From: Streptomyces sp. NBC_01235 | GTDB taxonomy: Bacteria > Actinomycetota > Actinomycetes > Streptomycetales > Streptomycetaceae | NCBI RefSeq assembly: GCF_035989285.1 | Contig: NZ_CP108513.1 | Coordinates: 9,796,001-9,860,000 of the forward strand | Length of the DNA: 64,000 bases | Reading direction: 5' to 3' | Shown: piece after piece, positions 1-43,909 of the stretch | Layout: the number at the start of each line of letters is the position of its first letter | Numbering within the stretch: the first letter of the stretch is position 1 | Program-made: the position numbers and the translations under genes | The notes under the pieces: model-generated | Databases searched by the model: none | What the model was told of the DNA's origin: nothing | The model's input: only the letters and a program-made list of their open reading frames with translations

Positions 1-1
1 G

Positions 2-8154: not shown

Positions 8155-8737
8155 GCCCTACAAGCCCCAGTTCAGCCACAAGGACTGGATCGACAACCAG
8201 GACCGCGTCAAAGCGGGCGGCGAGGACGGACTCAACTACCGTTTCCACCTGCTGGAGGCCGAGTTCGCCGCACTGGCGGACAACCAGATCAACCCGATCA
8301 TCGACTCGCTGGGCGCGCTGACGAGACATCTCACGCTCACCCCCGCCCTGATGCGCTACAGCGACGCCGGAGCCGAGGTGCCGCCCTGGTCACAGGGCAT
8401 CGACATGGTCGAGAAGCCGGCGGAGAAGACCCAGGCGCACGGCTTCATGAACATCGTGCTTCCGGACGGTGCTCTCGTGCAGTCGCTGCTCGCGACCGGG
8501 ACCAATCTGTCCAGCACCGGCACGCTGACGGTGTCCCTCGTGGCCCGCGACATCAAGGACGGCGGAGGCGGCACCGGCTTCCTCATCCAGTCCACAACGC
8601 TGGGCACTGCTGTCGTACCGGAGCGCGAGGTGAAGATCTCGAATGACTCGAACCGCTATTTCCTGACGGTTGACCTCGAGAACGCGGATCCGGCCAAAGC
8701 GGTGAAAGTCTTCTGCGTCCAGCTCGCCTATCAGTGA
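8147..8737 (+). CDS. eCIS-associated small protein (fibre-adjacent, unknown fold)
   Basis: A 196-aa protein overlapping the end of the 1418-aa gene by 8 bases. The N-terminus is polar and helical (NQDRVKAGGEDGLNYRFHLLEAEF); the C-terminal 110 residues look like a beta sandwich (LPDGALVQSLLATGTNLS, GTLTVSLVARD, NRYFLTVDLENADP). I do not recognise a named family. Its position between the large baseplate protein and the repeat fibre suggests a fibre adaptor or tail-surface protein. There is no signal peptide, consistent with assembly in the cytoplasm. Confidence 0.6.
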   Translation: MIKPYKPQFSHKDWIDNQDRVKAGGEDGLNYRFHLLEAEFAALADNQINPIIDSLGALTRHLTLTPALMRYSDAGAEVPPWSQGIDMVEKPAEKTQAHGFMNIVLPDGALVQSLLATGTNLSSTGTLTVSLVARDIKDGGGGTGFLIQSTTLGTAVVPEREVKISNDSNRYFLTVDLENADPAKAVKVFCVQLAYQ

Positions 8738-8777
8738 CCGTCCGGAACGCCCTTCGGCACACCGAGAGGAGACGGCC

Positions 8778-10874
8778 ATGTCAAAGGTCGAGGGACAGGA
8801 TGTCCCCAGCGCGTATCCACACCCGCAGCTGTTCGGCGTGTGGGGGGACAGCTCCGGGGGCAGCGGTGTCATCGGCAGCACCGGGAACACGGGCACGACG
8901 GAGGCGCCGGTCGGCGGCGTGTTCGGCGACACCAAACAGCACGGTGGCGTAGGAGTCGTGGGCCGGTCCCAGCACGTCCAGGGGGGCACGGGCGTCGTGG
9001 GTATCAGCGCCGGCGGGGTCGGCGTGTCGGGCATCGGCAACGGATCCGGTCCCGGGGTGCTGGGCACTGGCGGCCAAGGCCCGGGCGTGCAAGGCGAGAG
9101 CACCCAAGGGGCCGGGGTGACCGGCAAGGGAGCTCCCAGCAGCCCCGGCGTCATCGGCATCGGCAGCGGGGGTCCTGGAGTGGAGGGCACGAGCGTCCAG
9201 GGCGCGGGCGTGTCCGGCATTACCACCGGGTCCGGACCAGGACTGCTCGGGTCTTCGACCGTCGGCCCCGGGGTGGCGGGCACGAGCTCCGGCGGCCCCG
9301 GCGTCTCCGGCGAGGGCACCGGCTCCGGCCCGGGCGTCACGGGCACCGGTGTCACCGGCCCCGGGGTCCAGGGATCCAGCGCGCAGGGCGACGGTGTCAC
9401 GGGCACGGGCGGCAGTACGGGCGCGGGCGTCGTCGGCACCGCCCTCGCCGGTCCCGGGCTCTCCGGAACGAGCACGAAAGGCTCCGGAGTCCTCGGCCAG
9501 GGCGGCGGCACCTCGCCGGGCGTGGACGGGAAGGCCACGGGCGGGCCGGGAGTGTCCGGCACGAGCACCGACGGCCCCGGCCTCTCGGGCAGCAGCACGA
9601 AGGGCGACGGCGTCACCGGTCAGGGGGGAGGGCAGGGCGCGGGTATCACGGGCCGCGCGACCGAAGGCCCGGGCGTCTCGGGCACCAGCACCAGCGGTGT
9701 CGGTCTCCGCGGCACGGGGGGTGGGACCTCCGCCGGCGTCGAAGGCGTCGGCTCGTCCGGCGCGGGTGTGATCGGTACGAGCACGCAGGGCGCCGGGGTG
9801 TCCGGCACCAGTACGCAGAGCGTCGGCGTCACCGGAAAGGGCGGCGGTGCGAACGCCGGCGTGGAGGGAACCGGCACCTCGGGCCCGGGCGTGTCCGGCA
9901 CCAGTACGCAGGGCGTCGGCGTCACCGGTACCGGAGGCGGATCCAGCGCCGGAGTCGTCGGCACCGGCAGCGGCGGCGCCGGCCTCAAGGGCATCAGCAC
10001 CAGCGGTGCGGGCGTCCTCGCCGAGAGCACGAGTGGCGCGGGTGTCTCTGCGTCGAGCACACAGGGCACCGGTGTCTCGGGCACGAGTACGCAGGGCGTG
10101 GGAGTGTCCGGCAAGGGCGGCGGCACGAATCCCGGCGTACAGGGCACCGGAGGTGCCGGGCCCGGCCTGTCCGGCAGCAGTACGGGGAACGCCGGGGTGT
10201 TCGGCAAGGGCGGCGGCACGAATCCCGGCGTCGAGGGCACCTGCACCTTCGGTCCGGGCGTCAGCGGCACCAGCGCCCAGGGCTACGGAGTCAAAGCCGA
10301 CGGAGCCACCGGTCTGTACGCGACGGGGGCGTCGCGAGCCGCCTACCTGGAGGGCGACGTCGTGATCACCGGAACGGTGTCCGACGGCGCGAGCCGCATG
10401 AGGATCGACCACCCGATCCAGCCCGAAGACCGCTATCTGGTCCACGCGGCGGTCGTGTCCCCCGAGCTGAAGACCGCCTACGACGGCACGGCCGTCCTCG
10501 ACGAGGACGGCCGTGCAACGGTCGAACTGCCCGATTGGTTCGAGTCGTTGAACGAGTCCTTCCGCTATCAGCTCACCGCCGTCGGCGCCCCGGCCCCCGA
10601 TCTCCACGTCAGCCGCCCCCTCGCCGATCACACCTTCGCGATCGCGGGGGGCGGGGCAGGCCTTGAGGTCTGCTGGCAGATCACCGGAGTCCGCTGCGAC
10701 AACTGGGCCCGGGCCAACCCGCTGACCACCGACGAGATCAAGCCCGAGGAGGAGAAGGGGTTCTTCGTGCACCCCGAGCTGATCGGCCGGCCGGCGGACC
10801 GTTCCCTCTCCGCACTCGTCGCCCAGCCCGCCGCACGGGGCACCGCGCCCGAGGAGAGGCCGGGTCCGGGGTGA
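8778..10874 (+). CDS. Glycine-rich repeat fibre with conserved C-terminal tip domain
   Basis: A 698-aa protein with a strong ribosome site (GAGGAG) before the ATG. Residues ~20-515 consist of about fifty 10-11-residue units of the form GxGVxGTSTxG, often alternating with GKGGGTNPGVEG. This pattern is expected of a beta-solenoid or trimeric fibre shaft. The C-terminal ~170 residues form a non-repetitive domain (VVITGTVSDGASRMRIDHP, then VVSPELKTAYDGTAVLDEDG and PDWFESLNESFRYQLTAVG) of the type found at the ends of fibre/S74-like repeat proteins. The context suggests a receptor-binding fibre of the injection system. The matching DNA repetition makes copy-number change by slippage likely. Confidence 0.6.
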   Translation: MSKVEGQDVPSAYPHPQLFGVWGDSSGGSGVIGSTGNTGTTEAPVGGVFGDTKQHGGVGVVGRSQHVQGGTGVVGISAGGVGVSGIGNGSGPGVLGTGGQGPGVQGESTQGAGVTGKGAPSSPGVIGIGSGGPGVEGTSVQGAGVSGITTGSGPGLLGSSTVGPGVAGTSSGGPGVSGEGTGSGPGVTGTGVTGPGVQGSSAQGDGVTGTGGSTGAGVVGTALAGPGLSGTSTKGSGVLGQGGGTSPGVDGKATGGPGVSGTSTDGPGLSGSSTKGDGVTGQGGGQGAGITGRATEGPGVSGTSTSGVGLRGTGGGTSAGVEGVGSSGAGVIGTSTQGAGVSGTSTQSVGVTGKGGGANAGVEGTGTSGPGVSGTSTQGVGVTGTGGGSSAGVVGTGSGGAGLKGISTSGAGVLAESTSGAGVSASSTQGTGVSGTSTQGVGVSGKGGGTNPGVQGTGGAGPGLSGSSTGNAGVFGKGGGTNPGVEGTCTFGPGVSGTSAQGYGVKADGATGLYATGASRAAYLEGDVVITGTVSDGASRMRIDHPIQPEDRYLVHAAVVSPELKTAYDGTAVLDEDGRATVELPDWFESLNESFRYQLTAVGAPAPDLHVSRPLADHTFAIAGGGAGLEVCWQITGVRCDNWARANPLTTDEIKPEEEKGFFVHPELIGRPADRSLSALVAQPAARGTAPEERPGPG

Positions 10875-11101: not shown

Positions 11102-12499
11102 ATGCGTACGGCCACCAGTGATCATCGGTGTGTGAAGACAGACGAACAACCGATGGCCGCGGTGCACGGCCCAGATCCCGCTCGCCGGCGGGCGACGTTC
11201 GAGGTCCTGATGGGCCGGATAGCCTCCCGGTTCGCACGGGTCGAATTGCGGCGGCAAGCACGGGAGTTCGTCCTCGGCCTGCCGGCGGGCCTGCCACGGA
11301 AGAACTGCTGGACGCCGGCCGAGCACGCCGGCCATGCCAGCCCCGACCGGCTGCAGCACCTGCTCGCACGGGCGAAGTGGGACGCGGACGCCGTCCGTGA
11401 CGATCTGCGCGGCTTCGTCGTCGACCACCTCGGCACAGGAGACGTCGTCCTGGTGGTCGATGAGACCGGTGACCTGAAGAAGGGCACGCACACGGTCGGG
11501 GTCCAGCGCCAGTACACCGGCACCGCCGGACGCGTCGGAGAACAGCGAGGTCGCTGTCCTCCTCGCCTACTCCACCCCGCGAGGTCATGCCGCGATCGAC
11601 CGGGAACCCTACGTGCCCCGCTGCTGGACCGACGACCCCGACCGGTGCCGGGCCGCTGGCATTCCGGAGGACCACACCTTCGCGACGAAACCCCAGCTCG
11701 CCGCCCGCATGATCGACCGGGCCCTGACCGTCGGGATCACCGCGGCCTGGGTTGCCGTCGACGAGGCATACGGCGGCAACACGCCCCTGCGTAACACCCT
11801 CGAACAACGCGGCCAGGCATACGTCCTCGCCGTCGCCCGTGACCACCACATCACCACCCGGGCCGGAAAGAGCGCGCCGATGACCTGGTGAAGAAGATCC
11901 CGAAGCGGGCCTGGCAGAAACTCTCCGCCGGAGCCGGAGCCGGCGCCAAGGGCCACCGCCACTACGACTGGGCCCTGGCCGTGATCGCGGACGGGCGGCC
12001 CGGACACCGGCACCTACCACTCGCCACAACCGCCGCACCGGCGAACTCGCCTACTACCGCTGCTACTCGACCGCCGAGACCCCCTGACCACCTTCGTTAT
12101 GGTTGCCGGCGGCGGTGGACCATCGAGGAGACGTTCCAATCATCCAAGACCCTGGCCGGTCTCGACGAACACCAGGTCAGACGCTGGACCTCTTGGCACC
12201 GCTGGGTCACCCTCGCCATGCTCGCCCACGCCTTCCTCGCCGCCGTCACCGCCGCCGAGCAGACCCAGCACAAGCTGATCCCACTGACCCGTAACGAGAT
12301 CCAGCACCTGTTCACGACCCTCGTCACACAGCCCCGGCACACCACCGGGCACCGACTCCGCTGTTCACACTGGCGCCGACGCCACCAAGGAATGGCGGGG
12401 GCTCGCCACCCGCTACGCCAAGACCCCTATCAGCCACCTTGCCGGACTCCACCTGCGCGGCGTGGTCGTCTGGCTCCGCAGCCTCCAATGAAGATCTGA
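11102..12499 (+). pseudogene. IS701-family transposase, frameshifted
   Basis: The N-terminal half is intact in one frame (starts ~11102) and carries the family's first catalytic region, VLVVDETGDLKKGTHTVGVQ. At ~11535 the frame shifts; a second frame continues with AAWVAVDEAYGGN (second Asp region). A third frame from ~11888 carries KKIPKRAWQKLSAG, and the C-terminal part has WTIEETFQSSKTLAGLDEHQ, the usual glutamate region. At least three frame breaks leave no functional enzyme. The last codons (MKI stop) lie in a short sequence that is repeated at the end of the tetR gene. Confidence 0.8.
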
Positions 12500-18921: not shown

Positions 18922-19324
18922 GAACGTATCACCGTCAACTCGGGGAAATTTCCTGGGACTTCGCCGCCCAGCCCCGCCGGCGCAGGTCGCTCGTTCGTGA
19001 AGATCCAACGAACCCGGTTCAACATCAGCGCACACACGCGTTCTCGGCAAGGTCCGCACCGGCCCGAAGTGGGAGTACTGCTCTGGCGAGGGCCCTGCTG
19101 GTCCTGACGAGGCGCGAAGTCTCCCGGTGACCGACGATCTTCACCGAAGTCATCCGCCCACGACCAGCACGAGCACCATGAACCCCGCGCACACCAGACC
19201 CATGACCTGCAAATTCAGTGGCGGCGCAGGAGAGGAAACGCGGCTGCCCGGTGCGGAATTGGATCATAAGAGGGGACAATGTCCGTGCAGGGCAACGTCG
19301 TTGGGTCACAGGGAGAGGGACAAG
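18922..19324. other. Divergent intergenic region, no gene seen
   Basis: About 400 bp between the esterase start and the three-gene NTPase/helicase operon. No open frame here shows recognisable protein features. It should hold the promoters of both divergent units; the only marked site is GGGAGAGG just before 19325. An AT-richer patch (GAATTGGATCATAAG, ~19257-19271) is a candidate promoter but does not match consensus well. Confidence 0.4.
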
Positions 19325-19762
19325 ATGCTGGAGGAACTTGTTCTGGTCGGGGGAACCACGGTCGTCGCGGCCATGGCCACCGACTCGTGGACGGTCGCGC
19401 GCGGCGGAGTCGCACGGCTGTTCCGCCGCCGCGGAGAGGACCGACAGACCGCCATCGAGGCCCAGCTCGACAACAACGAGGCCCTCGTCGCGAGGGCCGA
19501 CGACGCCGAGCGGGTACGTCAGAGCCTGCTCCCCGTGTGGATGCTGGAGCTGGAATCGCTCCTGGACGAGTACCCGGACGCCGCGGACGAACTGCGTGAG
19601 CTGACCGAGGAGATCAAGAAGCGGTTGCCCGAGACGCGGCAGCCCCAGGTGCAGAACAACGTGGCCAAGGACAACGGACAGGTTTTCGCGGCTCTGGGCG
19701 GCAATGTCATCGTGCACCCGGCGCCTCCTGGACAGGCGGGAGGTACCGGAGCCGCCCGGTGA
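19325..19762 (+). CDS. Small membrane-anchored coiled protein of NTPase/helicase operon
   Basis: A 145-aa protein; GGGAGAGG lies 5 nt before the ATG. Residues 3-20 are hydrophobic (LEELVLVGGTTVVAAMA) and may anchor or dock the protein. Residues ~38-105 are charged and helical (a likely coiled coil). The tail reads VQNNVAKDNGQVFAALGGNVIVH, a beta-like tail resembling those of small proteins encoded next to actinobacterial STAND NTPases. Its stop overlaps the next GTG (GTGA), so the two products are probably made in fixed ratio. Its role is unknown; the likely guess is an adaptor or membrane-acting partner of the downstream NTPase. Confidence 0.65.
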   Translation: MLEELVLVGGTTVVAAMATDSWTVARGGVARLFRRRGEDRQTAIEAQLDNNEALVARADDAERVRQSLLPVWMLELESLLDEYPDAADELRELTEEIKKRLPETRQPQVQNNVAKDNGQVFAALGGNVIVHPAPPGQAGGTGAAR

Positions 19763-22626
19763 GTCGGCCCGGAGCCGGACCACGGCAGACGGTCCGCGTC
19801 GACGGCGGGTTCGGCTACGGCGTCATCGGCGCCGACCTGCACGTCTTCCCCGACCGGGGCCCGGTCTACCTGCTCTCCCGGTATCGACCTGCTCCGGGCC
19901 TGGCCCCCGCCCTCTCACTCGGGGAGAGGGACACGGTCGGACCCGCCTCCCAGCCCAGTCGGCTCCTCAACGCCCGCTTCCAGGTCGTGGATTTCACCGG
20001 TCGGGCCGAGGAGCGGGCGGAGCTGGCCGCATGGCGGGACGGTGACGGTCCCCGCGCCGCCCTCTGGCTGCACGGAGCCGGCGGCCAGGGCAAGACCCGG
20101 TTGGCTGCGCAGTTCGCGGCCGACAGCGCGTCAAGGGGCTGGAAGGTCGTCTCGGCCACTCACGGCGCCGGTACGATCCACCCGCACCCGGGAAGCCAGG
20201 ACCTGCGGCTCGATGGCGCCGCGGGGCTCCTCCTGGTCGTCGACTACGCCGACCGCTGGCCCCTCTCCCATCTGACGTGGCTGTTCAGTAACAAGCTGCT
20301 GGACGGGCCCCTGCCGACCCGACTGCTGTTGCTGGCCCGGTCCGTCGCCCCCTGGCCCGCCGTGCGCTCCGCGCTGGAGGACACCAGGACGGAGGCGGGC
20401 GACCTCGCACTGCGACCGCTCGATGAGCGCCGCGGTGGACTCGACGCCCGCCGAGCCATGTTCACCGTCGCCCGCAACTGCTTCGCCGCCCACTACGGTC
20501 TCGCCGACCCGAACGCCATCGCCGTACCCGGCTATCTGGACCGGTCGGACTTCGGCCTGGTCCTGGCGTTGCACATGGCCGCGCTGGTGGCCGTCGACGC
20601 CCACGTCCGCGGCGGCAGCCCGCCGAAGGACATGGCGGGCCTGTCCGCATATCTGCTCGACCGCGAACGCAGGCATTGGACCCGGCTCCACGAACTCCGC
20701 CTGGAGGGCCTGGAGTACGAGACCCCGCCCGGCGTCATGAGCCAGGTGGTCTTCACCGCCGCGCTCGCCGGCGCGACCACCCACCACGACGGCACGGCCC
20801 TGCTCGGTGGCCTGGGCATGGAGCGCCCCGCGCGGCTCCTGGCCGATCACGCCACTTGCTACCCGCCCGAGGAGCCCGGCGCGGTCCTCGAACCCCTCTA
20901 CCCCGACCGGCTCGCCGAGGACTTCCTCGCCCTCGCCCTCCCCGGCCACGACACGACCGGCTACCCCACGGCTCCCTGGGCGCCGGATTTCATCGGCACG
21001 CTCGTCGCCCGCGACCCGGACGGCTCGCCGCCTGCTCATCTGGCCCGTGCCCTGACCTTCCTGGCCTCCACGGCGGCACCGCACCGCTGGCCGCACGCCG
21101 CCCGGTACCTGGAAACCCTGCTGCGCACGGACCCAGCCCTGGCCGTCGCCGCCGGCGGCGCGGCCCTGACCGCGCTGGCCGCGGTCGACCTCGACACCGA
21201 GGTCCTGGAGGCGGTCGACGCGTACTTCCCCCACCGCGGACAGGCAGATCTCGATGCCGGTATCGCCGCCGTCACCGAGCGCCTCGCCGAACGCCACCTC
21301 TCCACCACCCAGGACTCCTCCGCGCACGCCCGGCTGTACCAGAACCTCGGGTTCCGGCTGGAGAGGGCGGGCCATCGGGAGGACGCCGTGGCCGCGGCCG
21401 AGAAAGCGGTCGCTCTCCTGCGGAAACTCGCCGCCGTCGACGCTGCCACGTACGAGCCTGCGCTCGCCATGGCCCTGGCCCAGCTGAGCGAGCGTGCTCA
21501 TTCGGCTGACCGCACGGAGGCCAGCCGCCACGCCGCCGAAGAGGCCGTCGGTCTCTTCCGAAGACTGGCGGACGTCGACCCCACAGCGCACGAACCCGGA
21601 CTCGCCCTGTCGCTCTCCCACCTCGGCGTGAACCTGTCCGAGGCCCGGGACCCCGAGGCGGCCCTCGCCGTGACCCAGCGGGCCATGGGAATCTTCCAGA
21701 GGCTGGCGGCCACCGACCCCGAGACCTACGGGCCCGGCCTGGCCGTGACCCTGGTCAACGAGGCCGTTCTGTGCCGGCAGCAGCGGCGGTGGTCGGACGC
21801 CCGGACGGCTGCCGAACGGGCGGTCGCGCTCATCCGGCGGCTGGTGGCCGGCGGACCCGCGGTCTCCACGTCCGAGTTCGACCGGTCCGTCGCGGTCGAC
21901 GAGTCCGACCTGGCGACGGCCCTGTCCGTTCTTGGGCTGCTGCTGTGGGGCGCACGCCGCCGCGACGACTCCCTGGCCGCCCTGCGGGAGGCGGCGGACA
22001 TCAGATGCCGACTGGCGACGGCCAACCCCACCGCCCATGAACACGCTCTGGCCGATGACCTCTCCTCCCTCGGCACCTACCTCGCGCAGAGCGGCCGTGC
22101 CGAGGAGGCGCTGGCCGTGACCGCGCAGAGCGTGGAGATCTACCAGCGCCTCGCGTCGCAGAACCCCGGGGCGTTCGAGAAGCCACTGCGCACGGCGCAC
22201 GAGGCATACCGGACCCTGCGCGAGCGGCTGAGCGGAACTGCCCCCGAAACCGACAGGACCTGGACTCTGGAGGAGCACTATGTGGCGCTCCTCAACCAGG
22301 ACGAGGTCTGGCAGGACGCCCAGGACCGCCGCCATCGCCTGGACGACATGGACCCCCGCTACAGCGGCAACGTGCTGCGGTTCCTGCTCCGGCAGGCCGA
22401 TGTCCTCTTCGAGGGGTTGTTGCACGGGCTCGGCGCCTCCCCCGAGTCGCTCGGCCGATGGGCCGGTGAGACTGCCGAGACCTGGCTCGCCCGGCAACCG
22501 CTCGCCGTCGCCCTGCGCCGCCGCTCGGAGGGGAAGCCGGCCCGACCGGAACTCTGCTATTGCGGGTACGCCATTCAGCCCGAGTGGAATCATGATCATT
22601 GCTATCCCGGCATCATCGTCGACTGA
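19759..22626 (+). CDS. STAND-type NTPase with TPR repeats
   Basis: A 955-aa protein from GTG. Residues ~10-45 form a short beta module (GYGVIGADLHVFPDRGPVYLL). A P-loop GAGGQGKT follows near residue 107 (LWLHGAGGQGKTRLA), then a Walker B-like LLLVVDYADRW near 160. The central helical part leads into TPR units from ~520 to ~830 (repeats built on AVAAAEKAVALLRKLAAVD and relatives). STAND NTPases of this build act as switches that oligomerise on sensing a trigger. The C-terminal ~60 residues carry a Cys/His-containing tail (ELCYCGYAIQPEWNHDH) that could be a small zinc site. It lies between the small anchor protein and the helicase; overlap and spacing suggest one transcript. Confidence 0.75.
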   Translation: MSRPGAGPRQTVRVDGGFGYGVIGADLHVFPDRGPVYLLSRYRPAPGLAPALSLGERDTVGPASQPSRLLNARFQVVDFTGRAEERAELAAWRDGDGPRAALWLHGAGGQGKTRLAAQFAADSASRGWKVVSATHGAGTIHPHPGSQDLRLDGAAGLLLVVDYADRWPLSHLTWLFSNKLLDGPLPTRLLLLARSVAPWPAVRSALEDTRTEAGDLALRPLDERRGGLDARRAMFTVARNCFAAHYGLADPNAIAVPGYLDRSDFGLVLALHMAALVAVDAHVRGGSPPKDMAGLSAYLLDRERRHWTRLHELRLEGLEYETPPGVMSQVVFTAALAGATTHHDGTALLGGLGMERPARLLADHATCYPPEEPGAVLEPLYPDRLAEDFLALALPGHDTTGYPTAPWAPDFIGTLVARDPDGSPPAHLARALTFLASTAAPHRWPHAARYLETLLRTDPALAVAAGGAALTALAAVDLDTEVLEAVDAYFPHRGQADLDAGIAAVTERLAERHLSTTQDSSAHARLYQNLGFRLERAGHREDAVAAAEKAVALLRKLAAVDAATYEPALAMALAQLSERAHSADRTEASRHAAEEAVGLFRRLADVDPTAHEPGLALSLSHLGVNLSEARDPEAALAVTQRAMGIFQRLAATDPETYGPGLAVTLVNEAVLCRQQRRWSDARTAAERAVALIRRLVAGGPAVSTSEFDRSVAVDESDLATALSVLGLLLWGARRRDDSLAALREAADIRCRLATANPTAHEHALADDLSSLGTYLAQSGRAEEALAVTAQSVEIYQRLASQNPGAFEKPLRTAHEAYRTLRERLSGTAPETDRTWTLEEHYVALLNQDEVWQDAQDRRHRLDDMDPRYSGNVLRFLLRQADVLFEGLLHGLGASPESLGRWAGETAETWLARQPLAVALRRRSEGKPARPELCYCGYAIQPEWNHDHCYPGIIVD

Positions 22627-22661
22627 ACAGCGCTGCCGACCGGGTGGACGAGGGGAGACGC

Positions 22662-25600
22662 GTGGGGGACATGGCCGAACTCGGTCTGCCGGTCGTGGAG
22701 GTCGTACGGGAGCGCTGGGGCGTCGTCCTGCCCGCCGACGGTCTCATCGCCCGTTTCGCCGAACCCGGTTGGACCTACGAGGAGGAGGTGGCACGCCCCT
22801 GCCCCGAGTGCGACGGCCGGATGCACTCGCTGCGCAGACCGTACGAGTCGGCGGGGAAGGTCTACCGCTACGTGGCCGTCGTCTGCCCGGTCTGCCCGGC
22901 GGCGTACACCCTCGCGGACCTGGGCGTGAAGACCTACGAAAAGCTGTGCGCGCGGCCCGGTGCGGCGAAGTCGGACGCGGTGGAGCCCGGCGAGGCGAAC
23001 GAGTCCGGTGCCGTGCCCCCGGCGCGGGCGTCTCGCCGGACGGGCGCGGTGGGGCCGACAGGGACGCGGGTCGGGGTGACAGCACGGACGAACTTGCCGT
23101 GGGTGTCCGAAGGGGCACGAAGTTGGGAACGGTTCCTCGGCCCTTGCCCCACCGGGCCGGGCGTCACCATCACCGCTGTCGCGGCATCTCCCGCCCCTGC
23201 CTGGCCGACGGATCTGCCGATGCCGGCCGAGCCGGAGAAGCGCCGCCTGTTCTGGCGCAAGGTCACCGACCCTGCCTGGCGGCCGCCCGAGGGGGCGGTG
23301 ACGGCGGCCGACGACATCCGGATCATCCTGCCCGAGGGCCCCGCCTTCGACGACCTGCGCGCCCACCTGGCCGAGCGGGGCATTGCGTTCCGCAGCGTCC
23401 GGCACTGGGTGGAGGACGAACAGGTCGGCACGGTGGGCGAGTTCGGCAGTCCCACGGATCTGGTGGCCCACCCCGCCCGCGCATTCGCGGGCCTGGGTTC
23501 CCCCATGCCGCCCACGCCCGTCGCGGGACCCGGGGCGCACGCCGCCCGGGACGCGTTCGAGGCCCAGTGGGACGCCCTGGCGGACCTGCCGGACGCCGAC
23601 GAGGCCCCGTACGTACCGGTCACCGATCTGGTTCCCGAGGACTGGACCCGGCTGTTGCCGCACCCCACCTTCAACCCGGCACAGGCCGAAGCCGTTCCCG
23701 CCCTCCTGGAGGACGACGGCCATGTGATGGTCGTCGCCCCGACCGGCGCGGGCAAGACACCCATCGGCATGGTGGCCGCGCTGCGCGCCCACGCGCAGGG
23801 CCGCAAGGCGGCCTGGCTCGTCCCCCAGCGGTCGCTCACCGACGAACTCGACCGTGAACTGGAGAACTGGCGGCGGCACGGCATCGGGATCGTCCGGCTC
23901 ACGGGCGAGTACGCCACCGACACCGAACTCGTCCGCGAGGCCGACATCTGGGTCGCCACCACCGAGAAGTTCGAGGCGATCTGCCGAAACGGGTCGCTGG
24001 GCGGTGTCCTTGCCGAGGTCGGCGCTCTGGTCGTCGACGAGATCCACCTGCTCGGTGATCCGGTGCGGGGCGCCGTGCTCGAAGCGGTGCTCACGCGGGT
24101 ACGCGAGGACAGTGCCCAGACCCGCATCGTCGGACTGTCGGCGACAGTGGCCAACGCCGACGAGGTCGCCGACTGGCTGGGGGCCCGGCTGATCCGTACG
24201 TCATGGCGGCCGACCCGGCTGACCTGGCAGATCCCCCTGCTGCCCGCCGCACGCGACGGCGAACGCTCCATGCGGTCCACCGCTGCTCGGACCTCCGCCG
24301 CCGTGCGGCTGGTCCGGACCGTGACCGACGAGGATGGCAGCGTGCTCGTCTTCTGCAGCAGCAAGCGCGGAGTGCGTGCGACGGCACTGGCCATCGCCGC
24401 GGACCGCGGGGCCCCGACACGCGGCGTCGACGCGGACGACACAGAAATCGTCGAGCGGCTGTGCGGCAGCGTCGGCGTCGGACTGCACTACCGCGACTGG
24501 CCGTACAAGCGCGAGGCCGAGAAGGCGTTCCGGGCCCGGGAGAGCGACGTCCTGGTCGCGACCTCCACCGTGGCAGCCGGGGTGAACCTCCCCGCCCGCG
24601 CCGTCGTCGTGCGCGACGGCCGCCTCGGCCAGAATCGGATCGAGGTGTCCATGGTGCAGCAGATGTTCGGCCGCGCCGGACGGGTCGGCGCGGGAGAGCG
24701 GGAGGGCTGGGCCTATCTGCTGGCGGACGAGACGGAGCGCCCCGCATGGCAGGCGCGGCTGACCCTCGGCTACACCGTGCGTTCGCGTATCGGTGACCGG
24801 CTGCCCGACCACCTGCTGGCCGAACTGGTGCAGGGACGCGTGACCTCGCTGGAGGAGGCCGAGGACTGGTGGACCGACACATTCGCCTTCCATCAGGGGC
24901 ACGACAGTGTCGAGCCGCTCCATGACGCCGTGGACTGTCTGGAGGAGGCCGGCTTCCTGCGCCGGCATGCCGGACCTGGGGGCGACACGTTCCTGGAACC
25001 GACCGAACCGGGCACGCTGACCAGCCGCTTCATGGTGGACGCCGTCCTGGCGCACGAGTTGTCCGAAGCGGTACGCAACCTGCCCGTACCGGAGGACCCC
25101 GACCACGCCGAACGGGCACTGACGAGGGTGCTGGCCACCCGGCTGCCGGAACTGGCGGAGGCCGCGTTCAGCGACCGCGCCCGCGCCACCCTGCGCAGGG
25201 TGCTGCGCCACCAGGGCCGGACGGAGCAGCTGGAGACCGATCAGGAACCACCGGACAAGGACGAGGGACTGCTGCCGGGAGACCTGGCCCACGCGGTGCT
25301 GCTGCTGGTCGCCACCAGCCCCCAGGCGTTCGCCGCGCGCGCCGGGTACGTGCTCGGCATCCCGGCCGAGAGCCTGACGGCCGTCCTCGACGAGGCCCAG
25401 CGCTATCTGGCCTGGCTGGGTGCCCAGGGAGAGCTGGGTACCGTCCACCCCTGGGCGGCCGTCGTGGCCGCCGACCTCGCCGAACGCATCCGCTGGCGCG
25501 CCCTCGGCCCCGAGCGGGGCGCCGGCCGGCTGCTGTGGATGTGCGGCCGGATGGCCACACCGCGGCTGGCACCGCGTCTCGTACCGCGCATGTGGCGCGC

Positions 25601-25949
25601 GGCGCGCGATCGCGGTATCGGTGCCCCCGACTGGACGGGCACCACCCCGCCGCGCGACAGCGCGATCACACCGGCGCGATACCAGGCGCTGCTCAAGCAG
25701 CGCGCCACCGGAACCGCCCTCACCCGGCACTCCGGCTCACTGCGCGTGGAAGCCCCGCACGGCGCGGTGATCTGCCTCTGGGACGGCGCGACGACGATCC
25801 GGTACGTCTCCGACGGCACCCCCGCCATACTCGACCACCCGCCGGGCAATCCCGGTGACTCTTCGAGAGGCCGACGAGGAGGCGCCGTCTTCACACGCGG
25901 CGACCGCCACGCCGCAGGGTGGCTCGCGCCCTACAACGGGCACTCCTGA
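22662..25949 (+). CDS. Ski2-like DEAD/DEAH helicase with N-terminal zinc finger
   Basis: A 1095-aa protein from the GTG at 22662, preceded by AGGGGAG; an ATG at 22671 is the alternative. Near residues 46-80 two CPxC pairs (CPECDGR and CPVCPA) form a probable zinc ribbon. The helicase core has motif I APTGAGKTPIGM (~360), motif II VVDEIHLLGD (~458), motif III GLSATVANADE, motif IV VLVFCSSKRG, motif V STVAAGVNLPAR and motif VI MFGRAGRVG, the Ski2/Hel308 pattern. A winged-helix and helical C-terminal region follows (DLAHAVLLLVATSPQ). It should unwind or translocate on nucleic acid. Ski2-like helicases occur in known antiphage systems such as Hachiman (HamB), but no HamA-like gene is present here. 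Confidence 0.8.
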   Translation: MGDMAELGLPVVEVVRERWGVVLPADGLIARFAEPGWTYEEEVARPCPECDGRMHSLRRPYESAGKVYRYVAVVCPVCPAAYTLADLGVKTYEKLCARPGAAKSDAVEPGEANESGAVPPARASRRTGAVGPTGTRVGVTARTNLPWVSEGARSWERFLGPCPTGPGVTITAVAASPAPAWPTDLPMPAEPEKRRLFWRKVTDPAWRPPEGAVTAADDIRIILPEGPAFDDLRAHLAERGIAFRSVRHWVEDEQVGTVGEFGSPTDLVAHPARAFAGLGSPMPPTPVAGPGAHAARDAFEAQWDALADLPDADEAPYVPVTDLVPEDWTRLLPHPTFNPAQAEAVPALLEDDGHVMVVAPTGAGKTPIGMVAALRAHAQGRKAAWLVPQRSLTDELDRELENWRRHGIGIVRLTGEYATDTELVREADIWVATTEKFEAICRNGSLGGVLAEVGALVVDEIHLLGDPVRGAVLEAVLTRVREDSAQTRIVGLSATVANADEVADWLGARLIRTSWRPTRLTWQIPLLPAARDGERSMRSTAARTSAAVRLVRTVTDEDGSVLVFCSSKRGVRATALAIAADRGAPTRGVDADDTEIVERLCGSVGVGLHYRDWPYKREAEKAFRARESDVLVATSTVAAGVNLPARAVVVRDGRLGQNRIEVSMVQQMFGRAGRVGAGEREGWAYLLADETERPAWQARLTLGYTVRSRIGDRLPDHLLAELVQGRVTSLEEAEDWWTDTFAFHQGHDSVEPLHDAVDCLEEAGFLRRHAGPGGDTFLEPTEPGTLTSRFMVDAVLAHELSEAVRNLPVPEDPDHAERALTRVLATRLPELAEAAFSDRARATLRRVLRHQGRTEQLETDQEPPDKDEGLLPGDLAHAVLLLVATSPQAFAARAGYVLGIPAESLTAVLDEAQRYLAWLGAQGELGTVHPWAAVVAADLAERIRWRALGPERGAGRLLWMCGRMATPRLAPRLVPRMWRAARDRGIGAPDWTGTTPPRDSAITPARYQALLKQRATGTALTRHSGSLRVEAPHGAVICLWDGATTIRYVSDGTPAILDHPPGNPGDSSRGRRGGAVFTRGDRHAAGWLAPYNGHS

Positions 25950-26110
25950 CAACGGGTTTCACAAAGCGACTCCTGAGCACCGGCAACGGACGCTCCGACC
26001 GCCGGCGACGCGACGGAGATCCCTGTGGTTCCCGCATGCGCCCACCGGGCGCGGGTAGAGGCGCAGGGCGCCGTTTCGTCGCACCGGGTCGGCACGGGAG
26101 CAGGCCGGGA

Positions 26111-30479: not shown

Positions 30480-33400
30480 TCACAGGGGCACGCACGCCAC
30501 ATCGCACTCGACGCGCCGCAGCTGACGTGCCGCCAGCAGCCACGGATGGTCCGACCGCAAGACGGCGGCGAACCCCGCCACGGCGACGCGCTGTCGAACC
30601 TCGGCCTCGGCGCCGTGCCCCAGTCCTCGGTGATCGAGGGCCAGGTTGGCGGCGCACACCAGCGTCAACGGGTGCCGTTCCCCCATCGTCTCGGTCAGCA
30701 GCGTCATGGTGGCCTCGTCGATGTCCCGTGCTCGCTCGAAGTCCAGACGGGCGTGAGCCGTGGTGGCCCTGGCGACCGCGACACCGAGCGTCATCGGATG
30801 ACGGCAACCCACCGACGCGTCCATCCGACGAGCGACGTATTCCTCGAGCTCCCACGCCTCGTCGAGCATGCCGAGCCCGCGTAGCGCGGCGGCCAGGTCG
30901 GCCTGGGCGGTCAGGGTGTACGGATGGTCCTCGCCGAGGCGAGCGGCAAGACGCGGTGCCGTGGTCGCCGCAAGCTGATGGGAGGCAGCGGCCCGACCGG
31001 CCAGACGCCTGTCGGCCGACGCGTGGACCGCGACCGCCAGAGTGCGGGGGTGCTCGGGGCCGTAGAGGGCCTCGAAGCGCCACAGCGCTTCGGCTGACAG
31101 TTCGGCGGCCGCCTCGAGCGCCCCGTCGCGACGTCGGCAGACGGCAAGGTTGTCGGCGATGTGCCATGTGAGCGGGTGTTCCTCGCCGAACACGGAGAGG
31201 GTGCGGCGATGGAGGTCTTCCTGGGCGTGGCGGGCGGCCGCGTAGTCGCCGCGTTCCCGCACATCGAGGTTGACGGAATCGAGACTTGCGAGGGTGGCTG
31301 GATCGGTGGCGCCCAGGGTCTGTTGGCGGTGTCCGGCGTTTTCCTCGTCGACGGACAGCGCTTCGTCGAATCGGCCGCACCAGCGCAGATCGACGCCAAG
31401 TTGGTGGGCGGCATCCAGCGTGACCCGGTGGTCGGCACCGAACTGGTACCGGGCCAGCCTCACGGCTTCTTCGCTGAGCTCCCGTGCCTGCTGGAGCCGG
31501 CCTCCGTGGCGGCGCGCCACGGCCAGTTCGGACAAGGAGGCGACCACGCTCCCGGAATCGGACGCTACTCGCCGGGCCATGCGTAGGGCCTGCTCGGAGA
31601 GGGGCACCGACTCCGCGACGCGACCGCTGCGCCGCAGCAGGGACGCACAGGTCCTCGTCATGCGGACGACGTCGCTGTCCTCCTCGTCCGACGTCGCGAG
31701 CCAGGCTGCCCTGGCCTCCTCAGCGAGGACCAGGGCACCCTCCACCTCGCCGCAGCCGCCGAGGAACAGCACGGTCCGATGGATGAGCGACCGAACCGTC
31801 GCATCGCTGCTGTCCACCGCCTGCGAGGCCGACAGGTGCGGCAGCAGTGAGGGGAGGACCTGCCAAGCCGCCGGGGAGTCGGCGGGGTCGCCCCCGGCCG
31901 CCGCGAGCCGCATGTGGGCTTCCTCGCGCGTACGTTGATGTTCCTCGGCCGACAGACCGGCCAGCAGCAACTGCTGGAACCCCCGGTCGAGGCGCACGGT
32001 GTCGTTGTCCTCATCGGCGTTCAACAGGGAGAGCCGGACCAGCGTTGCGAGGGAATGCCGCAGCTCCGCCGACTCGCACAGGGGTTCGCCCACTGGCGCC
32101 CTTCCTGGGGCGCGAAACACGGCGAGCGGGATGGGCTCGGCAGCAAGGTGGGCGCACACGTCCAGCAACCGGGGGGCGCCTGGCGCCAGCTCCTCGAGCA
32201 TTGTCAGGGCGATGTCCCAGACCGCAGTTAGAGGGACGGGCAGGCCGGGTGCCGCGTCCAGAAGGTGGTCGGCCGAGTGATGACGGTGGATCAGGTTCAC
32301 GTACGCGTCGACGGGCATCCCGGTGCTCAGGTGCCAGGTGCCCGCCTGCTCGACGGCCAGGGGCATGTCCCCGAGGGCTTCGGCGAGCCGTCCGGCTTCC
32401 CGCTCCGGGAGGGCTGGCATGTGCCCGCGCAGGAGTGCCACCGTCTCTTCGCGCTCGAAGCCCTCCAGCGTCACCGGGAGCGCCACCTGCGCCCACGCCA
32501 GGTTGCGGGACGTGACCAGGACTTTGCCCGGACCGTGGACGGGGAGGTGTCGCATGGCCTCGTCGACGTCATCCGCGCCGTCGAGGATTAGCAGCCACCT
32601 GTCGTACGGCGAACCGCTGCGCAGCGCCTCCAGAAGGACCGGTACGGCCGACTGGACGGTGAGCTGTGTGCCGCCCGTCGGAGTGAGGTCCAGTCGGGCC
32701 GCCAGGTGGGCGAGCGACGGCAGGAGAAGGCCCTTGCCTGCTGCCCGGACCCAACAGACGAGGTCGTACTCGTGCGCGTGCCGATGGACGTACTCCCGCG
32801 CCAGTTCCGATTTGCCGACACCGCCTGCACCCTGCCCGGGATGCGGGAGCACACAGACGAGGCTGTGGTCGGTGAGATGGTCGGCCAGCATCCGCAGCTG
32901 GGCCGTCCGGCCCACGAACCGCTCGTTGCGCGCGGGGACGTTCACCATGAGGGCGGGTGAACGGGATGGTGTCCCGGCAGCCTCTGGGCCGTCCTGGTTC
33001 ACACCGACGTGCGGGGTGCCCGCCGCGGCCTCACCGGGTACCTCGGCCAGGGGCGACTCGTCGTCCGGGACAGGCGACCGATCGACGACGGTCTCGCGAG
33101 GAGTGATCCCGTCCGCCGGCGGCAGCACCGCAGCGCCGCGGTGGTGTGGCACGCCGTCCGACTCGATCCGCCGAGCGCGCTGCGCGTAGGGCCCCGACAG
33201 CGCCCGCATCACCGCCAGCTCGGCCCGCAGCCACTGCCCGGCACTGGGGTCGGGCAGCGCGGCCGCCACCGGATCGCGCAGCGCGGCACGCAGGGCGACA
33301 CCGTGCTCCCCCGCCGCGGAAAGCCCACCGAGGATGTCGACGACCATGGCCAGCTGCTGACGCGTCGTGGCGGCCAGAAGCGCCTCGCGGACCCCGGCGG

Positions 33401-34799
33401 CGAACTCCGGTGCCTGCCCGCCGTCGTGGTCCCAGTCGATGAGCCCGCCCATCAGGATCTCGGCGAGGTGCTCCGTGTCGGCTCTCACGCTGGGGTGGTG
33501 GCGCAGCTGCTGGATGAGGTCGAACTCGAACGGTGTGGCGGCGAGCCGAGTGGCGAGGCGACGGGCGGTCGGCGTGGCCTGGCCGAAGAAGCGGCGTACG
33601 GCCGCGGCCGCGTCGGGGGGACGCCGCGGCGGGACGAGACCGGGAGCGGGCCGACCGGCGTGCAGCGACCCGGCCAGCACCACGGGAAGCTCACGGACGC
33701 CCGGCTCCCCGACGACGAGATCGGCCCAGGCCGCGAGGGATCCGTGCTTCAGCGTGAGCACGGGGACGACCGGTGACTTGCCGTCCGTCCAGGGCAGCGG
33801 TCGGATCGGGTCCGTTTCGTCGCCCCACTGCACAAGGCGCAGTTCCGAGCCGGGGGCTCCGAATCCGCCGGCCTTCAGTGTGGCGACCTGGGGCGTGAGG
33901 GAAGCGCGGTGCCGCAGATGAGGCGGCAGCAGTTGGACCACGGCGGTGGGCCCCGCGGCGCCGAGCCGGCGGAGCAACGCGTCGGCGGCCGCCGTGGCCC
34001 AGCCGCGGCCCATGCCGTCGGTGACGACGAGGAAGACACGACCGCCCCCGCCGCCGACGATCTCCCCCAGGTCCCCGGAGCCGGGCGCCGAGCCCCGGCG
34101 CAAGGCCGGCGGTCCCGTGTCCGGCACGTCCACCTGGACAGTGAGGACGTTCCCGAAAGCGCCGCTGTGCACGGTGGCGTCCTGGAGCGCCTGCGTCTCC
34201 TCCCGCCAGACGGTCATGGTGGGGCCGGTGTCGACGAGCAGGACCAGATCGAAGGCCCGGTCCAGGACCGGCCTGAACGACGGCATCCAGAGCCCGTCGA
34301 CGACCATCTGCTCGGCCGTGAGTTCCTCGTCCAGCAGCACCGTGCCACGGGATGGCACACGCCGCTGGAGCCGGTGCAGGGCACGCGCCAACGGCGCCGA
34401 ACGTGCTCCCCGGCCGGGTGCCCGAGGTCGCACCGAGGGCAGTAGGGGCGAGCCGAGGTGGAGACGGCTGAGGCCCTCGGGGTCGGGAGTCGGCAGGGCC
34501 CGCGCGTGGGAGACCGGCAGCTCCTCGCTCGACGGCTCCGGCACCGGCGCGGAGGACTCCGGCGACGGAATCGGCGGCTCCTCAGACGGCCAGTGCTCAC
34601 CCTGCTGCGGCACGTGCTCCCTGCGGACGGTACGCCCGGTCCGTTCCCAGTGCGCTGCCAGCCAGACAGCGTCGGCCACTTCCTGCCAGTCCGGTCCATG
34701 CTCTTCGGAAGAGGACGGTTCGGGCGGTGGGGAGGCGGACGGCCCCGACCCCGCGGGCTCCTCGTGTCCCGGTGCGCGCTCGCGCGGGGTTCCGGTCAT
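30480..34799 (-). CDS. SAV_2336/vWA-like NB-ARC-TPR protein (VMAP set 2)
   Basis: A 1439-aa protein whose ATG directly follows the MoxR stop (TGAATG). Residues ~40-60 resemble the SAV_2336 N-terminal domain (DAVWLAAHWERTG). At ~185 a vWA-like Rossmann unit starts (FDLVLLVDTGPTMTVW, a degenerate MIDAS motif, then VFLVVTDGMGRGW). The NTPase module has P-loop GQGAGGVGKSELA near 655 and Walker B WLLILDGADDVDE near 740, an NB-ARC-like STAND switch. From ~1000 to the end are TPRs of the Kin/Clu type (repeats around AARHAQEDLHRRTLSVFGEEH). It is the vWA member of a vWA-MoxR-VMAP ternary set, with a sensor-like TPR tail. FxsT-like proteins share part of this layout, but no FxsA gene is nearby. Confidence 0.75.
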   Translation of the reverse strand: MTGTPRERAPGHEEPAGSGPSASPPPEPSSSEEHGPDWQEVADAVWLAAHWERTGRTVRREHVPQQGEHWPSEEPPIPSPESSAPVPEPSSEELPVSHARALPTPDPEGLSRLHLGSPLLPSVRPRAPGRGARSAPLARALHRLQRRVPSRGTVLLDEELTAEQMVVDGLWMPSFRPVLDRAFDLVLLVDTGPTMTVWREETQALQDATVHSGAFGNVLTVQVDVPDTGPPALRRGSAPGSGDLGEIVGGGGGRVFLVVTDGMGRGWATAAADALLRRLGAAGPTAVVQLLPPHLRHRASLTPQVATLKAGGFGAPGSELRLVQWGDETDPIRPLPWTDGKSPVVPVLTLKHGSLAAWADLVVGEPGVRELPVVLAGSLHAGRPAPGLVPPRRPPDAAAAVRRFFGQATPTARRLATRLAATPFEFDLIQQLRHHPSVRADTEHLAEILMGGLIDWDHDGGQAPEFAAGVREALLAATTRQQLAMVVDILGGLSAAGEHGVALRAALRDPVAAALPDPSAGQWLRAELAVMRALSGPYAQRARRIESDGVPHHRGAAVLPPADGITPRETVVDRSPVPDDESPLAEVPGEAAAGTPHVGVNQDGPEAAGTPSRSPALMVNVPARNERFVGRTAQLRMLADHLTDHSLVCVLPHPGQGAGGVGKSELAREYVHRHAHEYDLVCWVRAAGKGLLLPSLAHLAARLDLTPTGGTQLTVQSAVPVLLEALRSGSPYDRWLLILDGADDVDEAMRHLPVHGPGKVLVTSRNLAWAQVALPVTLEGFEREETVALLRGHMPALPEREAGRLAEALGDMPLAVEQAGTWHLSTGMPVDAYVNLIHRHHSADHLLDAAPGLPVPLTAVWDIALTMLEELAPGAPRLLDVCAHLAAEPIPLAVFRAPGRAPVGEPLCESAELRHSLATLVRLSLLNADEDNDTVRLDRGFQQLLLAGLSAEEHQRTREEAHMRLAAAGGDPADSPAAWQVLPSLLPHLSASQAVDSSDATVRSLIHRTVLFLGGCGEVEGALVLAEEARAAWLATSDEEDSDVVRMTRTCASLLRRSGRVAESVPLSEQALRMARRVASDSGSVVASLSELAVARRHGGRLQQARELSEEAVRLARYQFGADHRVTLDAAHQLGVDLRWCGRFDEALSVDEENAGHRQQTLGATDPATLASLDSVNLDVRERGDYAAARHAQEDLHRRTLSVFGEEHPLTWHIADNLAVCRRRDGALEAAAELSAEALWRFEALYGPEHPRTLAVAVHASADRRLAGRAAASHQLAATTAPRLAARLGEDHPYTLTAQADLAAALRGLGMLDEAWELEEYVARRMDASVGCRHPMTLGVAVARATTAHARLDFERARDIDEATMTLLTETMGERHPLTLVCAANLALDHRGLGHGAEAEVRQRVAVAGFAAVLRSDHPWLLAARQLRRVECDVACVPL

Positions 34800-35858
34800 T
34801 CAGCGGCCCATCGAAAGGTCGCGCAGCAGCATCTTGAGGAGGCGGTCGCCCGACCCGTCGTCCCCCAGGCCGCCGGCCGTGGTGAGCTGAACCGCGTTGA
34901 ACAACTGGTCGAGCGAGTGGGTGCCACCCGAGCTGACCCGGTCGAGGAAGAGGTCGACCAGGTTCTCGGCGTCGGCGGGAAGTGCCCTGAAGTGATTTCT
35001 CACGATGGCGAGGAGCTGTTCCCGGCTGGGGGTGGTCATCTCCACGGGCAGACAGCGTCTGCGGAAAGCGGCGGGGAACTCACGCTCGCCATTGCTGGTG
35101 ATCACGACCACGGGGAACTCCCGGCACTCCACGTGGCCGTTGCGCACCATTGCTCGTTCGCCCGGATCACTGATGTGCACGACCATGCTGTCGTGCGAGT
35201 CCCGCACCAGTTCCGGCACTTCGTAGCTTCCGTTCTCCAGCACATGCAGCAGATCATTGGGCAGGTCCAGGTCGCTCTTGTCCAGTTCATCGATGAGTAG
35301 GACCCGGGGTCGGTCGTAGGGCAGGAGCGCGGTGCCCAGGGGCCCCAGGGTGATGAAGTCGCCCAGCGATGGCAGGGATTGGCCGCCGGTTCCGCGTTCG
35401 ACGCCGTCCGCCCCCGGGAAGTCGGGACCACCGGCCCGCCAGGCGGCGATGGCCTGCGCACGGCCCAGCGCATCGTACGCGTACAGTCCGTCCCGCAGGT
35501 TGGTACGGCTGACGATGCTCCACACCAGGACACGCCCGAGGCCCAGTTCGCGCGCGACCAGATAGGCGAGAGTCGACTTGCCGACGCCGGGCGGCCCGGT
35601 GAGGAGCAACGGGCGGCGCAGCAGCAGGGCCGCGTTGACCGTCTCGATGCTCGCCTCGTCGAGCTGGGGCACGGGCTCCACCTGCCCGAGGCGGCGGCGC
35701 GTGGCCTCCTCGTCGTCCGGGGGCGGCGGAAGGCCCGGCCCCCCGCGGAACCTACGCCAGGGCGGCGCCTCCGGCAGGTCCACGGGCACCCCGTCCGGGA
35801 CCCCCGTGCCGTGAAACACATGCCAGCCCGGTCGGTTCTCCGGGGGCGTCCCGCTCAT
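34800..35858 (-). CDS. MoxR-type AAA+ ATPase (VMAP set 2)
   Basis: A 352-aa protein with GAGGAGAG before the ATG; the start overlaps the previous stop (ATGA). Walker A is at residues 88-95 (GPPGVGKS), Walker B is VLLIDELDKSDLDLPNDLL near 173, and a sensor segment VVVITSNGEREFP follows. The C-terminal lid is helical. MoxR ATPases remodel vWA-containing partners; here vWA-like proteins are encoded on both sides of the set. The sequence closely parallels the second MoxR at 40933, including the PLGTAL and NGEREFP blocks, so the two came from a duplication. Confidence 0.85.
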   Translation of the reverse strand: MSGTPPENRPGWHVFHGTGVPDGVPVDLPEAPPWRRFRGGPGLPPPPDDEEATRRRLGQVEPVPQLDEASIETVNAALLLRRPLLLTGPPGVGKSTLAYLVARELGLGRVLVWSIVSRTNLRDGLYAYDALGRAQAIAAWRAGGPDFPGADGVERGTGGQSLPSLGDFITLGPLGTALLPYDRPRVLLIDELDKSDLDLPNDLLHVLENGSYEVPELVRDSHDSMVVHISDPGERAMVRNGHVECREFPVVVITSNGEREFPAAFRRRCLPVEMTTPSREQLLAIVRNHFRALPADAENLVDLFLDRVSSGGTHSLDQLFNAVQLTTAGGLGDDGSGDRLLKMLLRDLSMGR

Positions 35859-37387: not shown

Positions 37388-37415
37388 GTCGCCGACGGCT
37401 TCACCGACCTCCCCC

Positions 37416-37441
37416 CGCGGGGCCGATGCACCGACCCCGCG
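37416..37441. other. Hairpin in the gap between the two VMAP sets
   Basis: A 7-bp perfect stem (CGCGGGG/CCCCGCG) with a 12-nt loop lies in the only untranslated gap (97 bp) of the seven-gene run. There is no T-run, so it may be an attenuator or RNA-processing site rather than a terminator. It is the one place where expression of the two sets could be separated. Confidence 0.35.
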
Positions 37442-37484
37442 AGTGAAGCTAGCACGTCCGGCGAGGCGTGAGCCGCTGTCTGCC

Positions 37485-43907: not shown

Positions 43908-43909
43908 GG

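Follow-up and report, generated by a model that had tools for sequence, protein, structure and literature searches.

An apparently mobile three-gene cassette of Streptomyces that joins a probable Bell-STAND amyloid signalling pair to a predicted Ski2-like helicase

We analysed a stretch of 64,000 nucleotides from Streptomyces sp. NBC_01235 (hereafter the window; G000:C1:9796001-9860000, within a single-contig genome of 11.09 Mb), in which three consecutive plus-strand genes appear to form a mobile cassette, joining a probable Bell-STAND amyloid signalling pair to a predicted Ski2-like helicase. Gene 1 (19325..19762) encodes a Bell-type small helical protein of 145 residues; gene 2 (19759..22626, with a GTG start) a P-loop, STAND-type nucleoside triphosphatase (NTPase) of 955 residues with TPR repeats; and gene 3 (22662..25949) a predicted helicase of the Hel308/Brr2 class. 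All three genes had been proposed at these positions in an initial annotation and proved real, as did the four-nucleotide overlap (GTGA) between genes 1 and 2. The frame of gene 3 is open from a TTG at 22599 and ends at 25949; its start is likely to be the GTG at 22662, the counterpart of which was chosen by a simple gene caller in three other loci (L008, L011 and L064; L numbers denote loci and G numbers genomes), although in the window itself the caller picked 22644. Lying 35 nt past the gene 2 stop, this GTG fits the spacing of 36 bp first proposed. The nearest named proteins are from Streptomyces, with S. caniscabiei giving 94% for gene 3.

For gene 1, Pfam gave no family above its cut-off and PADLOC no model at E <= 0.1. 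The 77 homologues listed are alike in a helical N-terminal region and also have, in varying form, the C-terminal tag VQxNxARDxGxVFAxxGGNVIVH, which in gene 1 occupies residues 109-131 (19649..19717, plus strand). In an AlphaFold2 model built from 78 sequences (mean predicted local distance difference test score, pLDDT, 83), five helices lie within residues 2-100, with block means of 94-98, and are followed by a low-confidence linker and by two strands over the tag (120-124 and 127-131), likewise of low confidence. The initial annotation had read this protein as a membrane adaptor. We regard it instead as a probable Bell-type membrane-acting effector with a prion-like tag, since the arrangement of its tag is that described for Bell/NLR amyloid signalling.

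For gene 2, the reading as a P-loop and TPR protein was upheld: the P-loop is GAGGQGKT (Walker A, residues 106-113, 20074..20097), followed by a Walker B-like LLLVVDYAD (residues 157-165, 20227..20253), and matches to Pfam TPR_2, TPR_12 and TPR_10 over residues 524-752 (21328..22014) exceed their cut-offs, although the Pfam STAND/AAA matches fall below theirs. The strict Walker A pattern was present in 29 of the 29 closest proteins and in 77 of 121 family members overall, five of the first six misses inspected being HAPGGQGKT variants and the sixth a protein that lacks this N-terminal part; the VDYAD/E pattern was present in 99 of the 121. Gene 2 opens with a prion-like tag of the form VxxxxGFxYGVIGADLHVF (residues 10-30, 19786..19848), a pattern that matches the start of 98 of the 121 proteins, and closes with a Cys/His-rich tail, CYCGYAIQPEWNHDHCYPGIIVD (CxCG...HxHC...GIIVD, residues 933-955, 22555..22623). 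The strict tail pattern was found in 34 of the 121, mostly the closest ones, and most other members listed end without it. From its residues, the tail may bind zinc.

The C-terminal tag of gene 1 and the N-terminal tag of gene 2 match one another. Their profiles align without gaps and in register over 25 columns (hhalign 86%, E 5e-6); none of 200 column permutations reached this score (maximum 18.2 vs 22.3), and sliding windows wholly outside the tags scored at most 6.7 (Bell) and 10.9 (STAND). Related pairs were found elsewhere. In a locus near 3.66 Mb of the same genome (L007), the partner tags are close copies, GNTFHGPTAVQTGDHN and GNTFHGPTAFQAGDHN, and positions 1468-3251 of that locus hold another small Bell-like protein, with a neighbour bearing a near-identical tag, GNTFHGPTA.Q.GDHN. 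The partner tags of L105 are near-copies (NAVQGGNQYN and NAVQGGDQYN), and L106 is a comparable case. In L008 (11885-13600), a Bell-like end with the tag is carried by a longer protein, phosphorylase-like by eye, which precedes an apparently cut-short STAND gene.

As a separate observation, a locus near 4.16 Mb of the same genome (L006, 46-1911) encodes a longer protein, cyclase-like by eye, followed by a Bell protein. The two proteins have similar tags at their ends, VNKASRKGVVYAAQNGDQHI and TNTARDSGTVFAVQYGTQHA, so that the Bell protein has a non-STAND partner here.

Gene 3 contains the Pfam domains DEAD and Helicase_C, preceded by an N-terminal four-cysteine zinc module (22800..22895). The cysteines of its CPEC...CPVC motif (C68, C71, C96 and C99) were invariant in an alignment of 84 sequences, drawn from gene 3 and 120 homologues listed, with most of the shorter ones (890-976 residues) left out, and the module appears as a beta-rich segment in the predicted structure; the Ski2-like helicase with a CPxC-CPxC finger of the initial annotation is thus borne out. 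Among solved sequences, gene 3 matched SLH1, ASCC3, Hel308 and Brr2 at E 3e-75 to 1e-59, and HamB at 1e-23. Hel308 was its top VIA match, over about residues 339-1030 (23613..25688), with Brr2 scoring nearly equal, and the fold of Hel308, helicase core and following domains alike, was recovered in gene 3. Its scores of 252, 200 and 179 bits lie under the NCBIfam cut-offs of 887, 891 and 1200 for the PRK02362, PRK01172 and Hel308 models, respectively. By its predicted structure, gene 3 encodes a Ski2-like helicase whose fold comes nearest to those of Hel308 and Brr2, and our best guess is that it acts as a 3'-5' DNA helicase.

We compared window positions 10001-36000 by blastn with ten loci that have the co-directional gene order or part of it. 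In nine of these (L133, L064, L063, L135, L008, L010, L011, L066 and L134), homology starts at 19218-19317 and stops at 25937-26042, defining a block of ~6.8 kb, in two pieces in L010, L011, L066 and L134, where a gap of about 170-240 bp interrupts the start of gene 3; in L065 homology stops at 22795, within the helicase. Taking the outermost start and stop, with edges aligned side by side, the cassette extends over 19218..26042 on the plus strand. Beyond the block, no match of more than 150 bp to this part of the window was found in the ten loci, save a second STAND piece in L008, indicating that their flanks differ from those of the window. Flanks are alike among some of the loci, on the right side in L063 and L064, and over short stretches at both edges in L066 and L134, and no clear terminal repeats were seen where the edges were compared side by side. 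That the block is shared while its flanks differ speaks most strongly for the three genes being a unit, as the initial annotation had supposed, rather than chance neighbours; by these alignments the cassette is inherited as a block, and it appears to be mobile.

All three genes are under purifying selection, with ratios of non-synonymous to synonymous substitution rates (dN/dS) of 0.21-0.34 in comparisons with four diverged copies, L008, L010, L011 and L134; the ratio is noisy between near-identical copies, reaching 2.83 for Bell against L133 on almost no differences. The junction of genes 1 and 2 is a 4-nt overlap in six of the eight co-directional loci measured, the window included, and a 5-nt gap in L010 and L134. 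We additionally observed a near-palindrome, GGACAATGTCC, upstream of gene 1 (window 19274-19284), identical in the window, L133, L064, L063 and L135, and one base off in L065, L008, L010, L066 and L134, which is possibly a promoter or operator.

We assembled 44 distinct helicase loci with flanks (L008-L036, 29 from a genome scan; the window; L063, L064, L066, L133-L135, L138, L141-L145, L147 and L152), excluding short or partial loci (L037-L039, L052), remote archaeal and other loci (L040-L051, L053), the stump in L065, and nine contig re-fetches. The set is biased, this helicase having been the seed of the scan. A Bell-STAND pair adjoins the helicase in 14 of the 44, ten co-directional and four divergent (L013, L014, L017 and L035); the neighbourhood survey proposed in the initial annotation therefore finds the triad to recur, but not as an obligatory arrangement. 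In eight others (L015, L016, L019, L020, L028, L032, L138 and L152, the last across a gap of more than 1 kb), the Wadjet genes JetA2 and JetB2 lie downstream of the helicase, identified by profile in L016 (E 2e-170 and 8e-184) and by similarity in the others, where JetA shares 96-100% identity with its L016 counterpart; of the Jet proteins, JetA2 and JetB2 were the two covered. Neither arrangement is found beside the helicase in 21 of the 44. In one of these 21, L026 (12850-15599), a more distant Bell relative (38%) and a TPR protein lie on the other strand, about 0.7 kb past the helicase. The remaining locus of the 44 is L009, with its STAND-tail remnant.

The tailed form of the STAND protein and the helicase co-occur far above chance. 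Among 392 genomes of the genus, we found the tailed STAND in 7, the helicase in 15 and both in 4 (Fisher p = 4.6e-5), and among 375 genomes of the family, in 7, 25 and 6, respectively (p = 3.2e-7), the two draws overlapping and the tests carrying no correction for shared ancestry. A draw of 41 relatives held the helicase in two, the genome of the window included. Bell relatives, in contrast, were found in 213 of the 392 genus genomes (E <= 1e-6) vs 15 with the helicase, and a STAND gene or piece, judged by eye, follows Bell in 23 of the 24 loci L089-L112 (the exception being L104). Thus the pair is common and its helicase subtype rare.

In the helicase tree, the co-directional triads form one set of seven rows (99/100), the divergent triads lie on one side of a branch supported at 85/96, and the Wadjet-adjacent loci group at 100/100. 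The tailed proteins group together in the STAND tree, with the tailless Actinomadura-type rows P0160 and P0162 nested among them, and the helicase-adjacent proteins fall into two clades, the branching order of which the tree does not fix. This pattern would fit one old association with losses and two associations alike. Separately, remnants were seen in L009, L038, L039, L052 and L065, consisting of a STAND tail alone or of helicase stumps or ends, and suggest repeated decay of the cassette.

We favour, as modestly probable, a model in which the cassette is a STAND-triggered, prion-templated abortive-infection switch, with the helicase as a partner acting upstream or in parallel; in the Bell-STAND part of the switch alone we have distinctly more confidence. 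Gene 2 would be the sensor, its STAND-type NTPase held closed until the TPR part meets a trigger, presumably a phage or mobile-element product, whereupon it would oligomerise. The clustered N-terminal tags would then take a beta-arch, prion-like fold, to be templated onto the matching C-terminal tag of gene 1, and, by analogy with the Bell/HeLo class, the helical Bell domain would assemble at and permeabilise the membrane, leading to the death of the infected hyphal compartment. Gene 3 might work with the tailed STAND on abnormal or replicating invader DNA, either feeding a signal to it through the tail or adding a direct nucleic-acid block. The cassette would in this way serve in phage defence.

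Several results weigh against this model. For gene 1, the Bell model had no match in the PDB at E <= 0.001, and the N-terminus is moderately hydrophobic (Kyte-Doolittle 1.45 over residues 1-19). For gene 3, no tag was found; its best matches among solved sequences were SLH1 and ASCC3, and Foldseek placed Brr2 ahead of Hel308, rankings given which its substrate may be RNA. As assembled in L035, L066 and L135, the helicase gene appears interrupted. Concerning the tags, 34 Bell-STAND pairs were extracted, of which 10 were dropped beforehand (L008_2, L093, L100 and L111, in which the STAND start was not covered, and six near-duplicates) and 24 kept. The mean tag score of these 24 true pairs was 24.9 vs 22.0 for permuted pairs, with 530 of 20000 permutations as high; without L007, L105 and L106, the remaining 21 pairs scored 20.2 vs 22.5 when shuffled, with 19923 of 20000 permutations as high. 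Within the main tag class, true partners were thus no more alike than shuffled ones, and we rejected the idea that the tags co-evolve with specific partners.

The distribution of the helicase weighs against the model in the same way, and it bears on the strongest alternative, a possible reading that we hold to be somewhat short of even, in which an amyloid switch of the ordinary Bell-STAND kind and a stand-alone helicase gene ride on one mobile cassette as independent modules, without functional contact. In 30 of the 44 helicase loci the pair is not alongside, and it is among these that the eight with Wadjet-II JetA/JetB instead are found. Each part outlasts loss of its partner: in L009 the helicase persists although no more than a remnant of the STAND tail is left, and L065 shows the reverse, while tailed STANDs without the helicase exist in L067 and L068. 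Of the 11 distinct tailed-STAND genomes, G278 has kept the pair whole but the helicase as a stump, and in G047 and G170 the tailed STAND and Bell occur with no helicase match, indicating that the helicase is dispensable for the pair. Six helicase genomes (G014, G076, G078, G143, G257 and G303) also have a Bell relative, which, in the five for which its place is listed, is on another contig. Against such independence, the helicase is adjacent in the other 8 of the 11 tailed-STAND genomes, the three genes stay together in two different gene orders, and none of the 15 helicase genomes is among the 22 from which L089-L091, L093 and L095-L112 come, all with Bell but no tailed STAND.

It appears unlikely that gene 3 is instead the true sensor of a helicase-gated switch, signalling to the tailed STAND for relay to Bell, as the STAND protein has a TPR region of its own and L065, L067 and L068 have either no helicase or a stump of one. 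The kinship of gene 3 to Hel308 and, more weakly, to HamB, described as the sensor helicase of Hachiman in the available part of one paper (PMC12278908), and the statistical tie between the STAND tail and the presence of the helicase, speak for it. A more specific proposal, which we offer as rather speculative and unlikely as it stands, is that the Hel308-like helicase docks on the zinc tail of the STAND protein and licenses prion-templated membrane death on phage DNA intermediates; were it true, it would constitute a bacterial pathway linking DNA sensing to amyloid signalling. It appears very unlikely that gene 1 is an antitoxin-like inhibitor or adaptor restraining the STAND protein, with the latter or the helicase as the toxic part, for although gene 1 is small, comes first and overlaps gene 2, as antitoxin genes often do with the gene that follows them, a tag at the C-terminus of a small protein matching one at the N-terminus of an NTPase is the arrangement reported for Bell/NLR pairs in the portions of the literature available, and in L008 a Bell-like end bearing such a tag is joined to the longer, phosphorylase-like part.

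Genes 1 and 2, then, are of an already described kind, that of Bell/NLR amyloid signalling, and the helicase gene is the new part. The initial annotation had been unable to name the pairing, which holds to the extent that neither gene matches a PADLOC model but not for the pair itself, for which the accessible part of PMC7889193 provides a name. The helicase-bearing cassette was not found in a literature search, the coverage of which excluded most subscription journals. That a helicase is a partner in the cassette suggests a trigger linked to nucleic acids, and the locus is small and portable, with natural helicase-less variants (G278, G047 and G170) for comparison. With it, moreover, a helicase family resembling Hel308/Brr2 is placed in bacteria, next to two distinct modules that probably serve in defence.

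Elsewhere in the window, the only transposase remnant among the flanking open reading frames scanned is a DDE_5 match at 11613-11891, 7.4 kb upstream of the operon, so that the mobile-element debris noted at first is not next to it. A VMAP-type conflict locus (30480-44299, minus strand) encodes a TPR/AAA_16 protein, an AAA protein, an EAD2-VMAP-M0-VMAP-C protein, a large EAD2/GGDEF/VMAP-M0 protein, a trypsin-VMAP-C protein and Trypco1. It starts 4.5 kb downstream of the operon, close to the 5 kb initially given, but opens with the TPR/AAA_16 gene, the first VMAP-C gene lying only at 35855-37387. A run of genes at positions 1-10874 includes one for a Baseplate_J protein (2576-3901) and one for a protein with laminin-G (3898-8154), and Pfam matched none of the five others scanned; the run is perhaps a contractile injection or phage-tail cluster.

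Finally, we compared the cassette with known systems. It resembles the VMAP ternary conflict systems (eLife 2020, PMC7159879) in its NTPase/TPR logic, but genes 1-3 contain no VMAP or EAD domain at E <= 0.1 in Pfam, and its Ski2-like helicase is not among the partners named in the part of that paper available, which are SWI2/SNF2, restriction-type and superfamily-I helicases. In other Streptomyces, this family of helicases is found upstream of JetA2/JetB2 at Wadjet type II loci; the window operon is nevertheless not a Wadjet operon, given that genes 1 and 2 match no PADLOC model, and no Jet model was among the best 25 of the 46 PADLOC matches of gene 3. Gene 3 is like the archaeal and metazoan Hel308 over its matching core, and unlike it in its extra N-terminal four-cysteine module, its C-terminal beta module and its bacterial host, Hel308 being stated to be absent in bacteria in the portion seen of PMC12278908.

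As in Hachiman (HamAB), a Ski2-like helicase occurs in a probable defence context. The PADLOC comparison with Hachiman suggested at the outset gave no family for genes 1 and 2 at E <= 0.1, and thus no HamA, while the HamB models matched gene 3 at best with 112 bits, their best stretches mainly over the helicase core; unlike HamB, the window helicase has a Bell-STAND pair as its partner and is closer to SLH1, ASCC3, Hel308 and Brr2. The closest likeness is to the Bell/NLR amyloid pairs of filamentous bacteria (PMC7889193, PMC8086366, PMC9815663), which, in the available parts of these papers, carry the motif at the C-terminus of Bell and at the N-terminus of the adjacent NLR, and belong with the BASS motifs, of which ten families are cited there (Dyrka 2020). 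Both have adjacent or overlapping genes in filamentous actinobacteria, a small protein with an alpha-helical bundle and a C-terminal tag, and a STAND/NLR-type NTPase with repeats and a similar N-terminal tag; compared with what these sources describe, the window cassette differs in the Cys/His-rich C-terminal tail of gene 2 and in having a Ski2-like helicase as its third gene.
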